Both the position numbers and the translations under genes were made by a program. DNA of 34,551 bases from positions 1 through 34,551 of the forward strand of contig CAJFMB010000015.1 in the NCBI GenBank assembly GCA_904390925.1, in the 5' to 3' direction. The DNA comes from an uncultured Subdoligranulum sp. (lineage in GTDB: Bacteria; Bacillota; Clostridia; Oscillospirales; Ruminococcaceae). This document shows positions 851 to 28,078 of the stretch, in pieces. The stretch's first letter is position 1; each line of letters opens with the position of its first letter. The notes beneath the pieces were generated by a model. It was not told the DNA's origin, did no database searches, and saw only the letters and a list, made by a program, of their open reading frames with translations.

Positions 851-890
851 AATAGCCTTGCGGCAAAGCTTCTGCAACCGCAAGGCTATT
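851..890 (-). terminator. intrinsic terminator downstream of queA
   Basis: 13-bp perfect stem AATAGCCTTGCGG/CCGCAAGGCTATT followed on the minus strand by GTTTTAT. Confidence 0.8.
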
Positions 891-2008: not shown

Positions 2009-2013
2009 GTACC

Positions 2014-2170
2014 CAAGCACAGAGGCGCGGTTTTCATGAGTATCCGTTGGGATGATACGTCTGCCAGGGCGGTAGCCTGCGGAGAAAGGGCAAACCGCCG
2101 AAGGCGATGCACGGCACGCATCGTACCTGGGTCCGCAGTCGAACAGGCGCGGAACTGTCATGTGGGCAAA
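2014..2170 (+). promoter_or_regulatory. lysine riboswitch (L-box)
   Basis: L-box core elements in order: AGAGGCGCGG...ATGAGTA...GAGAAAGGGCAAACCGCCGAAGG...CTGGGT...GAACA...AACTGTCA, upstream of asd. Confidence 0.85.
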
Positions 2171-2221
2171 CCACATGTTGCGCTGTGCAATATGCAATAT
2201 AGAATTATATTGCATTCTGTG

Positions 2222-7091: not shown

Positions 7092-7137
7092 AAACGGAGT
7101 GTACATCCCGATCTGTTCGGGAATGTACACTCCGTTT
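7092..7137. terminator. bidirectional intrinsic terminator
   Basis: AAACGGAGTGTACAT...ATGTACACTCCGTTT (15 bp) with inner CCCGA/TCGGG; between convergent ACT-protein and rnmV-like genes. Confidence 0.85.
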
Positions 7138-23568: not shown

Positions 23569-26500
23569 TCATTCCTCTTCCGGGGCGCCCAGTTTCCGTT
23601 CCTGCCACTGTGCACAGGTAACCAGCACACTGCGGGGCTTGGCGCCCTCATAGGGTCCAATGATGCCTTCCTGTTCCATCTGGTCCATGATACGCGCGGC
23701 ACGGGCATAGCCCAGCTTGCAGCGGCGCTGCAGCAGACTGGTGGATGCCTGTCCGGCGTCAATCACGCATTCCACTGCCTGATCAAACATCGGGTCATGG
23801 GCAGAACCGCCGTCCGAATCGTCGCCGGAATCATGGCTGCCTTTTTCGGCCACAGCACGGCGCTCCATCTCGGCAATCATCTCTTCGTCATACTGAGCAG
23901 AGCTGGTAGCCTTGATGAAGTTTAGCACTGCGCTGATTTCCTCGTCGGTGACGTAGGTGCCCTGAATCCGCACAGGCTTGGGCGCTCCCACCGGCAGGAA
24001 AAGCATATCGCCATTGCCCAGCAGTTTTTCGGCACCGCCGGAATCCAGGATGGTCCGGCTGTCGATCTGGCTGGAAACTGCAAACGCGATGCGGCTGGGG
24101 ATATTTGCCTTGATCAGACCGGTGATGACATCCACACTGGGACGCTGGGTGGCAATAATCAGATGGATACCGGCAGCACGGGCTTTCTGGGCAATGCGGC
24201 AGATATAATCTTCCACTTCCTTGCCCGCCACCATCATCAGGTCGGCCAACTCGTCAATGACAATGGCAATGTAAGGCAGGTGCTCCAGAACCGGACTGGA
24301 TGCGGCAAGCTTGTTATAGCTCTTGATATCGCGGACGTTGTTCTCCGCAAACAGCTTATACCGGCGCTCCATCTCGGCCACTGAAGCTCCCAGCGCACCG
24401 GCAGCCTTGCGGGGTTCGGTGACCACCGGCATCAACAGATGGGGAATGCCATTGTATTCGGCCAGCTCCACCACCTTGGGGTCAATCAGGATCAGTTTGA
24501 CATCCTCCGGCGAGGAGCGGAACAGAAAACTGATGATGATGGAATTGACACAGACCGATTTGCCGCTGCCGGTGGAGCCGGCAATCAGCAGATGGGGCAT
24601 TTTGCACAGGTCCGCCACCTGGGCGGTACCGGCAATGTCCTTGCCCAGCGCCATGGTCAGCGGGGACCGCATATTGATATAATTGGGCGACTCAAAAACG
24701 CTGCGGATGTTGACCGCCGTCCGGATCCGGTTGGGGACCTCGATGCCGACGGCAGGTTTGCCGGGAATGGGGGCCTCGATACGGACGCCCGCCGTGGCCA
24801 GATTCAGGGCAATATCGTCAGCCAGATTGGTGATCCTGCTGATTTTGACACCGGCCTGCGGCTGCAGCTCATACCGTGTGACGGAAGGCCCGCGGCAGAT
24901 GTCCATGATCCGTGTCTTGACACCAAAGCTGTCCAGCGTGCGGACCAGGGTATCGGCATTCTTTTTCATTTCCCGTGCAGCGCCGGCGTCGTCTTCCGGT
25001 TTTGTGGGATTGAAAAGATTCAGGGACGGATAGCAGTAGGGCTGCACTTCTGTCTTGGCGAGTTCTGCCAGATCCGGCTGTGCCTCGCCTTTTTCCGTTG
25101 TCTGCACCGGAGTGGCCTTGTCGGCACGGGGCGGCGTGTGGATCGGCTCAGAAGCGGTATTGCCGATACTGCTGGAGACGCGCAGCCGTCCCGTACTGTC
25201 CGATGCGGTTTCGGAATAAGCATCGTTGGCGGATGTAGCCTGGGACATCGTCGGCTGCGGGGCGGCTGGAGCTGTCCCGGCCAGCACCGCACCGATGGGC
25301 CTTCCGGCATTCCAGGCGTCCCGGGCAGCTTCAAAACTGCCGCCCAGTGTTGGGATCACGTCCCGGGTCCCCTGCGGCTCCGGCTGGACAACAGGCTGTG
25401 GCTCCGGCTGAGGCTGAACCACCGCGGACTTTTGTGCCTCCACATCCAGGTGAATTTCACCCACATGGTTCTCGTCCGCTTCCTCCGGAATGCCCGCCAT
25501 TGCCTTGCGGATCAAGTCATCCAGCTCGTCCTGGCTGGCAGAGTCCTGCTTGGGCGCAGATTCCAGATGCAGGGAAAAGTCCTCCTTTTCCTCCTGACGC
25601 TGCGGTGCCGGGGAAGGCGGTGGAGTCAGCGGTTTCTGCTGAACCTGCTTTTCGTGGCCAAGCTGCAGCAGCGGGTCCAGGCCAAAGGTACCGCCCGGGC
25701 CAATTTCCACCGGCTGCAACGGATCATGTTCCAGTGCTTCATGCAGCATCCGGTCAGACATATCGGGGCCCAGATCCACATCAAAGGAGGCGCGGGTGTC
25801 CTGCTGAGGTGCCGCCGAGACCGCAGGGGCAGCCGGAGCAGCCGCTGCCGCCGGTCGGGAAACCACTGGCGGCTGTGTCGGCTGCATGGACGGCTGCTGC
25901 ACAGTCTGTTGCTGGGCGGCAGCGCGGCGGCGGGCAAGACGAGCTTCGTCCTGTTCCAGGTAGGGTTCCGCATTGAAGGCCGGATGGTGCGGGACCTGAT
26001 TTTGTTCCTCCGCCGGCAGACCACCCGTCAGATTTTCGATGGGTTCCTCCTCCGGCTCACCTCTGAAAAGCGGTGTGTCATATTCCGTTTCCCGGGCGTA
26101 TGCATTGGCCCGGGACTGCTTCCACCTTGCCACCTGGTAGGCAATGAACTGCACCACATCCCGCGGTGTGACGGCAAAAAACACCATCAGCCCGGTCAGA
26201 AACAGCAAAATCATGACAAAGTTGGAGGCGGGGCGCCCGCAGAGAGCAACCAGGGTCGCACCGATCACACCGCCAACCACGCCTCCGGCCCAGAATCTTG
26301 TCTGACCCCAGGCAAACAGTGTCTGAACCACCTGAATAAAACTGGAATCGCCAATTTTAAAGGCAGAAAAAACAACCGGCACGCTGGAGCATACCAGAGC
26401 CAGCAAAAACGCCTTGGCCACGAACTTGCCCACCAGATAGCCCGATGCCATCAAGTAAGCCACATAGATCAGAAAAGGCCCGACAAAATAAGTCAAAATG

Positions 26501-26787
26501 CCAAATACGCCAAAAAGTCCACTGCGGATAGCGCTCCACACACTTTGCCCCGGGACAATGACAAATGCAATGGCAAGGATGCCAATTGCCGCCAGTGGAA
26601 TGCTGCCCATAACGCTGTTGCGTTCTTTTCTGCGCTGGGCCCGGCGTGAGACATTCTCCCTGGCGGAGGCGCTGCGGCTTCGGGAAGCTGAAGATGCAGC
26701 TTTTTTGCCCGATGAGGACCCGCGTGTGCTGGAAGAAGACCGCCGTGATGAACTACCGGTGGATTTTCCGGAACGAGATTGTGCCAT
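23569..26787 (-). CDS. FtsK/SpoIIIE DNA translocase
   Basis: Four-TM-like N-terminus, long Pro/Gln-rich linker, LLIAGSTGSGKSVCVNSII Walker A, C-terminal gamma winged helix (DPMFDQAVECVIDAGQASTSLLQRRCKLGYARAARIMDQME). Confidence 0.95.
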   Translation of the reverse strand: MAQSRSGKSTGSSSRRSSSSTRGSSSGKKAASSASRSRSASARENVSRRAQRRKERNSVMGSIPLAAIGILAIAFVIVPGQSVWSAIRSGLFGVFGILTYFVGPFLIYVAYLMASGYLVGKFVAKAFLLALVCSSVPVVFSAFKIGDSSFIQVVQTLFAWGQTRFWAGGVVGGVIGATLVALCGRPASNFVMILLFLTGLMVFFAVTPRDVVQFIAYQVARWKQSRANAYARETEYDTPLFRGEPEEEPIENLTGGLPAEEQNQVPHHPAFNAEPYLEQDEARLARRRAAAQQQTVQQPSMQPTQPPVVSRPAAAAAPAAPAVSAAPQQDTRASFDVDLGPDMSDRMLHEALEHDPLQPVEIGPGGTFGLDPLLQLGHEKQVQQKPLTPPPSPAPQRQEEKEDFSLHLESAPKQDSASQDELDDLIRKAMAGIPEEADENHVGEIHLDVEAQKSAVVQPQPEPQPVVQPEPQGTRDVIPTLGGSFEAARDAWNAGRPIGAVLAGTAPAAPQPTMSQATSANDAYSETASDSTGRLRVSSSIGNTASEPIHTPPRADKATPVQTTEKGEAQPDLAELAKTEVQPYCYPSLNLFNPTKPEDDAGAAREMKKNADTLVRTLDSFGVKTRIMDICRGPSVTRYELQPQAGVKISRITNLADDIALNLATAGVRIEAPIPGKPAVGIEVPNRIRTAVNIRSVFESPNYINMRSPLTMALGKDIAGTAQVADLCKMPHLLIAGSTGSGKSVCVNSIIISFLFRSSPEDVKLILIDPKVVELAEYNGIPHLLMPVVTEPRKAAGALGASVAEMERRYKLFAENNVRDIKSYNKLAASSPVLEHLPYIAIVIDELADLMMVAGKEVEDYICRIAQKARAAGIHLIIATQRPSVDVITGLIKANIPSRIAFAVSSQIDSRTILDSGGAEKLLGNGDMLFLPVGAPKPVRIQGTYVTDEEISAVLNFIKATSSAQYDEEMIAEMERRAVAEKGSHDSGDDSDGGSAHDPMFDQAVECVIDAGQASTSLLQRRCKLGYARAARIMDQMEQEGIIGPYEGAKPRSVLVTCAQWQERKLGAPEEE

Positions 26788-26869
26788 GTTTCATGTACTC
26801 CTCAAAACAATGTCTGCGGCAAAACAACATGCCGGCTGTCTGAAAGATTTCCCTTAAATTATCTTTCAG

Positions 26870-27105
26870 GTATGTAAAGCGGGAGAACCTGTCACCGGCC
26901 ATTTCTGTGTCGGTCGGCCTGTCTCCCTGGCAGATGCCACGGTAGGGCCCCTTTTCCCTCATGGGTCCCTCTGGCTGTACATCCTGACACAGAAACGGTC
27001 TGGGGTCTTGATTTTCTGTGTCAGGCGGACAAACGCCCTCCGCAAAGCATCGATATTTCGCAAAATAGCATCAAACACATGGGCATATTGTTACACTACC
27101 CATGG
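26870..27105 (-). promoter_or_regulatory. structured leader / candidate RNA upstream of ftsK
   Basis: 13-bp perfect inverted repeat 26983-26995/27013-27025 with a third TTTCTGTGTC arm at 26902-26911, plus GGGAGA/TCTCCC (26881-26886/26932-26937). Confidence 0.5.
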
Positions 27106-27111
27106 TCTTTT

Positions 27112-27140
27112 ATTTTAGCACGATTTCGGTATCTTGTAAA
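27112..27140 (-). promoter_or_regulatory. putative promoter of the ftsK leader
   Basis: Minus strand TTTACA (27140-27135), 17-bp spacer, TAAAAT (27117-27112). Confidence 0.55.
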
Positions 27141-27235: not shown

Positions 27236-27934
27236 TCAGCCTCTGGATGCGTCAATTTCCCGGTACAGATAGTGCAGTGCATCACTCAGCCCGCCAAGAG
27301 AGTCGATCAGTCCCTCCTCCACAGCCTGCTGCCCATTGAGTACTGTTCCCATATCCATGACAAGCTCACCGGTATTGTGCATCAGTTCCACAAACCGCTT
27401 TGCCGATATCCCCGAATGCCCCGATACAAAACTGACAATCCGTTCCTGCATCTGCTCAAAATAGCGCATGGTCTGGGGAACGCCCAATACCATTCCCGAA
27501 TGGCGCACCGGATGCACGGTCATGGTGGCGGTGGGGACAATAAAGCTTCGTCTGGCCGATACCGCCAGCGGAATTCCGATGGAATGTCCTCCCCCCAGCA
27601 CCAGGGTGGCGCTGGGCTTGGAAAGTCCGGCAATCAACTCCGCCAGGGCAAGGCCCGTCTCCACGTCGCCGCCCACAGTGTTCAGGATTACCAGCAACCC
27701 TTCAATCTCCGGGTCTTCCTCAATATCCACCAGTTGGGGAATCACATGCTCATACTTTGTCGTCTTTTGATTGTCCGGCGCAAAGCTGTGGCCTTCAATT
27801 GTTCCGATCACCGTGAGGCAATGAATGGTATGGCTGCCACGGGTTGCGGCAACCGTGCCGCTTTCGGCGATCAGCTGCTGCTCCTTTTGTTTCTGCATGG
27901 TAGATTCCCCTGCTTCGGATTCTTTCCGACTCAT
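27236..27934 (-). CDS. ClpP-class serine protease, TepA-like
   Basis: [65 protein letters not shown]. Start 27934 with AGGAGG upstream. tepA next to spoIIIE is known in Bacillus. Confidence 0.85.
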
Positions 27935-28078
27935 GGTATACTCCTCCTTTCGGCTGCCGCCCCGCACTGGGCAGCGGTATACCTCAGTATGCCCCGCATT
28001 GCCTTGCCTTATTTCAAATGACCCGCATTCATGCCGGAGAAGAAGGAAGACCCCATACGAATCCACTTAGATAAAAAT

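Follow-up and report, generated by a model that had tools for sequence, protein, structure and literature searches.

A conserved hairpin and UACAUA hexamer in the leader of the ftsK operon of Oscillospirales, a candidate target of MazF

The ftsK locus and the fold of its leader

The analyzed stretch of DNA (the window, 34,551 nucleotides, contig G000:C15) belongs to a Gemmiger-like genome, and the closest relatives of its ftsK gene are found in Gemmiger. On the minus strand, a tepA gene (28066-27236) is followed by an intergenic region and by ftsK (26787-23569). The following features define the locus:

27236-28066, minus strand: tepA-like gene for a ClpP-family protease, the upstream neighbour in conserved synteny (ORF list and domain match)
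27112-27140, minus strand: sigma-A-type promoter TTTACA-17-(TG)cTAAAAT, conserved; the same type is present in the ftsK leaders of 40 relatives
26798-26803, minus strand: Shine-Dalgarno sequence GAGGAG of ftsK
23569-26787, minus strand: ftsK, encoding a FtsK/SpoIIIE DNA translocase of 1072 aa (ORF list and Pfam FtsK)

Both the promoter at 27140-27112 and the ftsK start at 26787 had been proposed in a first-pass annotation of this DNA and were borne out, the former by its conservation in relatives and the latter by the Pfam FtsK match and the Shine-Dalgarno sequence. The relatives keep a promoter of the form TTTTACAA-N-TTCRTGnTAAAAT together with the ftsK start. Judged by the position of the promoter, transcription probably starts near 27105 (minus strand), and the region upstream of ftsK in the window is best explained as the 5' leader of the ftsK mRNA. 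No convincing ORF had been seen in this leader. A 69-aa ORF does exist (26962-26753, minus strand), which covers part of the leader and extends into ftsK in a different frame, in a region where the leaders of the relatives cannot be aligned; no evidence for its status as a gene was found. A conserved small upstream ORF (ATG-NNN-TAA), considered for some of the relatives, was rejected, as it is not genus-wide and has no Shine-Dalgarno sequence. Elsewhere in the window, a lysine riboswitch was identified (2012-2193, plus strand, 95.5 bits).

The leader has a minimum free energy of -112 kcal/mol (z -4.0), and among 55 GC-matched stretches from the same window, 8 fold with equal stability. The perfect 13-bp stem reported in the first-pass annotation is an exact inverted repeat (26983-26995/27013-27025) with pairing probabilities of 0.85-1.0. 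It is not expected by chance, since perfect 13-bp repeats with a short loop occurred in none of 30 Markov simulations. The third arm, which had been suggested to compete for the middle strand of this stem, is exactly present, but does not pair there in the predicted ensemble. Further stems from the same annotation were recovered to different extents: GGGAGA/TCTCCC has a pairing probability of about 0.87 for the five outer pairs and 0.57 for the innermost one, TGGCA/TGCCA reaches 0.8-0.98 in four of five pairs, the stem ATCTTTCA is close to 1, and AGGGaCCC/GGGgCCCT pairs only partially. An intrinsic terminator or attenuator, i.e. a GC-rich hairpin with a U-run, was not found at any site within the leader. 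Two other long perfect inverted repeats are located in the window (851-890 and 7092-7137). They resemble terminators, and the second is followed by a T-run.

26928-27099, minus strand: insert relative to all relatives (comparison of leader lengths)
26983-27025, minus strand: perfect 13-bp stem-loop CCTGACACAGAAA/TTTCTGTGTCAGG inside the insert, without a U-run and thus not a terminator
26902-26911, minus strand: third arm GACACAGAAA, exact copy, pairing with the middle strand P 0.00

The leader of the window is 318 nt long, whereas those of the six nearest relatives measure 111-197 nt. The architecture seen here is mostly an insert of about 185 nt, which contains the 13-bp stem and separates the bases next to the promoter from a hairpin common to the relatives. 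Neither the 13-bp stem nor the third arm is present at the locus of any relative, and in the own genome they occur at one place. Of 99 loci, 94 lack the sequence GACACAGAAA. Four of the loci that contain it are copies of the window, and the fifth is an unrelated one elsewhere in the own genome. As the insert is single-copy in its genome and gave no phage match, it does not appear as a mobile repeat, and a one-off insertion is a possible origin. The ftsK leader of Gemmiger formicilis ATCC 27749 (L041) contains an unrelated, MITE-like insert of about 190 nt with inverted ends GGCAATATCGCATAATTC...GAATTATGCGGTATTGCC. As far as the compared leaders tell, the 320-nt architecture is specific to this species and the stems listed above are not the conserved part. 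The first-pass annotation had named missing conservation as the result that would speak against its proposal, and for the large fold with its competing stems this is what was found.

The conserved hairpin and UACAUA

In contrast to the large fold, a small core is conserved among the relatives. It consists of a short GC-rich hairpin, a few nucleotides and then UACAUA, lies ahead of the Shine-Dalgarno sequence or flanks it, and is well supported by the comparison of leaders. The proposal of a cis-regulatory RNA in the ftsK leader thus holds for this smaller element and not for the 320-nt fold. In the window, the element reads GGGAGA...TCTCCC-GCTT-TACATA (26927-26871):

26881-26927, minus strand: element hairpin with the closing stem GGGAGA (26927-26922)/TCTCCC (26886-26881), positional counterpart of the hairpin of the relatives
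26871-26876, minus strand: UACAUA hexamer, separated by 4 nt from the element hairpin on its 5' side; it matches the cleavage site of EndoA/MazF exactly
26974-26982, minus strand: ATGTACAGC, predicted partner of GCTTTACAT (26880-26872), which would mask UACAUA (P 0.89-0.98)
26840-26869, minus strand: 9-10-bp stem CCTGAAAGAT...ATCTTTCAG, directly 3' of UACAUA, in this species only

Examples from relatives are GGGGCAGTTTGCCCC-AT-TACATA, CCCGATTTTATCGGG-TT-TACATA and CGGCCGATGTGGCCG-TA-TACATA, and the sequence of the hairpin varies between them. Among all hexamers, TACATA is over-represented most strongly in a set of 44 dereplicated ftsK leaders: 23 of them contain it, with 1.07 expected (z 22). 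Over 50 ftsK leaders there are 33 copies compared to 1.3 expected, distributed over 27 leaders, and within Gemmiger its density in ftsK leaders is 5.0 per kb, compared to 0.25 per kb in the regions ahead of other genes. A general motif linked to Shine-Dalgarno sequences is not indicated, as there was no genome-wide enrichment and the counts were below the reversed-pattern control. In 29 of the 33 cases, TACATA is preceded by a hairpin at a distance of 0-8 nt, and UACAU is followed by A in 33 of 40 occurrences in leaders. Its distance from the inferred transcription start ranges from 27 to 229 nt, and only in few species (L020, L037, L044) is it located between the Shine-Dalgarno sequence and AUG. 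The mean unpaired probability of UACAUA is 0.64 versus 0.58 for matched 6-mers; in the window, the hexamer is predicted to be masked.

MAFFT alone left the hairpins unaligned and a covariance model was used instead. The first-pass annotation had called for a covariation check in relatives. There, the 13-bp stem and also the third arm are absent, and the check turned out positive for the small hairpin. All five stem pairs show changes on both sides. Of the cells 98.8% are paired, compared to 54% after shuffling and 34-59% after sliding, and the covariation score is 1.00 versus 0.21 for shuffled sequences; the alignment was fitted to the structure, which biases these figures towards it, and the sequences can be checked by eye. 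In a search of 0.9 Mb with a covariance model built from six sequences, the best 15 hits were all located in ftsK or uppP-ftsK leaders. The hairpin-UACAUA motif is absent from Rfam release 15, and the accessible main texts of ncRNA discovery papers and of a human-microbiome structured-RNA survey do not contain a motif of the ftsK leader.

Variants of this arrangement were observed as well. The leaders L023, L027, L029, L032 and L042 have a second hairpin followed by ACATAGAGGAG right at the Shine-Dalgarno sequence and thus hold two UACAUA or near-copies each. In L024, L026, L031, L036, L055 and L069, a hairpin is present at the same position, and TATAGA or GATAGA takes the place of TACATA behind it.

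Several relatives have uppP, encoding undecaprenyl-diphosphatase, ahead of ftsK, and in these the element is located ahead of uppP. Therefore, it belongs to the promoter of the operon and not to the codons of ftsK. The order tepA-[promoter-element]-(uppP)-ftsK is found across families of the Oscillospirales. The held-out set consisted of 30 loci that were selected by tepA alone and represent other genera and families within the order. Of the 11 loci in which tepA is followed by uppP or ftsK, 7 have TACATA in between, compared to none of the 19 loci with another gene after tepA, and the best four hits of the model in this set were all in tepA-uppP/ftsK intergenic regions. By this distribution, the element is specific to the ftsK (uppP-ftsK) operon. 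At L130 (3529-3505, minus strand), a hairpin with TTACATA was observed before a gene for a RluB-like pseudouridine synthase, and the tepA-uppP junction of the same genome is without the element.

Candidate readers of the element

The transcript of the window carries the EndoA/MazF hexamer U^ACAUA (26876-26871, minus strand). In B. subtilis, the in vivo site of EndoA (MazF) was determined as U/ACAUA by end mapping, with the sixth base A being required (PMC11780869). The same hexamer UACAUA is preferred by MazF of S. thermophilum (PMC10893535). The own genome contains a gene for an EndoA-type MazF (G000:C12:16160-16477). Its product matches EndoA structures at about 140 bits and retains Arg25, Asn36 and Thr48 (positions read from the sequence), and residues for activity or specificity of MazF have been placed at R25, N36 and T48 (PMC10893535). 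A PF02452 match was detected in 31 of 35 Gemmiger genomes (30 of 34 besides this one), and the genomes of 48 of 50 relatives contain a mazF copy with at least 68% identity, one of them truncated. A correlation of the presence of mazF with that of UACAUA had almost no contrast, since mazF is nearly universal among the relatives. L041 and L124 have neither an EndoA-type mazF nor UACAUA. L043, a metagenome-assembled genome, contains UACAUA and gave no mazF match; in L026, L031, L035, L055 and L067 mazF is present and UACAUA is replaced by TATAGA, GATAGA or other letters. MazF was considered only after the motif had been found, although the requirement for the sixth base was learned later still. 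MazF is favoured here as the most economical mechanism for reading the element, and that it does read UACAUA appears possible, though somewhat short of probable.

The similarity to the targets described in B. subtilis and S. thermophilum consists in the hexamer, in the EndoA-type MazF of the host and in the location of the site outside the coding sequence, near the Shine-Dalgarno sequence. In the accessible parts of those reports, targets are scattered through coding sequences or the transcriptome, whereas the ftsK leader site is 3' of a covarying hairpin and is found in one operon throughout the order; cleavage is a candidate activity here. The leaderless mRNAs generated by MazF of E. coli are similar in that a toxin site in the 5' leader would part the leader from the coding region. 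However, the E. coli enzyme cuts at ACA, and a cut in the ftsK leader would mostly leave the Shine-Dalgarno sequence on the coding fragment. None of the retrieved titles and abstracts on MazF and ftsK dealt with the ftsK leader; a single mention of ftsK occurs in one staphylococcal paper.

Alternatively, the element may be real and cis-acting but read by something other than MazF, such as an RNA-binding protein, a small RNA acting in trans or constitutive processing of the RNase Y type directly 3' of the hairpin, which would set the basal stability or translation of the mRNA. We regard this as a possible reading that we would not call probable. In its favour, all of the conservation evidence fits any reader and some relatives retain the hairpin with TATAGA or GATAGA in place of UACAUA. 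In addition, endonucleolytic cleavage just downstream of GC-rich stem-loops was described in the clostridium R. cellulolyticum, where it requires the stem but no particular sequence at the site (PMC10311766). The cip-cel elements of this organism resemble the ftsK element in the GC-rich stem-loop, the cut (here a candidate cut) just 3' of it and the free stem sequence. However, they are intergenic, serve stoichiometry and have no preference for a site sequence, whereas the ftsK element is located in a 5' leader and has an invariant hexamer, its most conserved feature. A reader other than MazF would also not explain why the site agrees with the EndoA hexamer at every position, the sixth base included, and the literature on UACAUA and RNA-binding in bacteria yielded nothing relevant. 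An element acting at the level of DNA or transcription between the ftsK promoter and the gene (an operator, a pause or a promoter-proximal element) is improbable. Its constant position downstream of the same conserved promoter type would fit, but the stem changes its sequence wholly and keeps its pairing, which is RNA-like and not operator-like, the range of distances of UACAUA from the inferred start is unfit for a promoter or operator, and a U-run for a terminator or attenuator is missing. The independent small RNA, perhaps 6S-like, that had been suggested in the first-pass annotation is very improbable. The leader shares with 6S RNA (RF00013) an own promoter and a strong fold, but a scan with Rfam gave no relevant match even at E 10, RF00013 included, a terminator is lacking and the large fold is not conserved. 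The true 6S RNA of this genome is located elsewhere (G000:C28:17984-18177, plus strand, 63.9 bits).

A separate question concerns the large structure of this species, which is probably an incidental insertion or expansion without a regulatory role, so that at most the small core would matter; such a reading can be combined with the explanation favoured for the core. In support of it, the insert is missing in every relative, the unrelated long insert in L041 indicates that the leader tolerates inserts, and 8 of 55 matched stretches of the window are no less stably folded. On the other hand, the perfect 13-bp stem goes beyond chance expectation and the insert supplies a strand complementary to the conserved site. 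This strand, AUGUA (26982-26978), adjoins the 13-bp stem and is predicted to pair with UACAU (P 0.89-0.98, from one sequence). It could mask UACAUA in this species, according to this single-sequence prediction.

A possible toxin-responsive switch in the ftsK operon

For the conserved core, we tentatively propose, at slightly less than even confidence, a leader that is guarded by its hairpin and carries a dedicated site for MazF, at which the ftsK (or uppP-ftsK) mRNA would be cut once the toxin is free. In Gram-positive bacteria, a hairpin at the 5' end commonly protects mRNA against 5'-to-3' decay. The hairpin of the element would shield the 5' end of the message until MazF/EndoA is released from its antitoxin and cuts at U^ACAUA, which would strip off the 5' hairpin and leave the message open to decay. 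Given this protection, we infer that cleavage immediately behind the hairpin would silence the operon. FtsK would then fall, and UppP too where uppP comes first. Envelope growth and chromosome segregation would thereby be tied to the stress state that the toxin controls. In this species, the insert would add the strong 13-bp hairpin and the AUGUA strand over the site.

In its wider form, the proposal describes an order-wide RNA switch in which the hairpin presents the toxin site and MazF regulates ftsK (and uppP) specifically instead of destroying mRNA in general, with the extra domain found here masking the site and possibly making it conditional. We consider this form rather doubtful. The purpose of chromosomal MazF is a long-standing question, which has mostly been framed as bulk mRNA decay. 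The conserved element suggests that the ftsK leader is built for switching upon toxin activation. If this is true, a hexamer fixed throughout the order in the leader of one cell-cycle operon, and held in place while the remaining leader turns over completely, would be a specific physiological target of MazF, and the question of MazF targets would become directly testable by a reporter.
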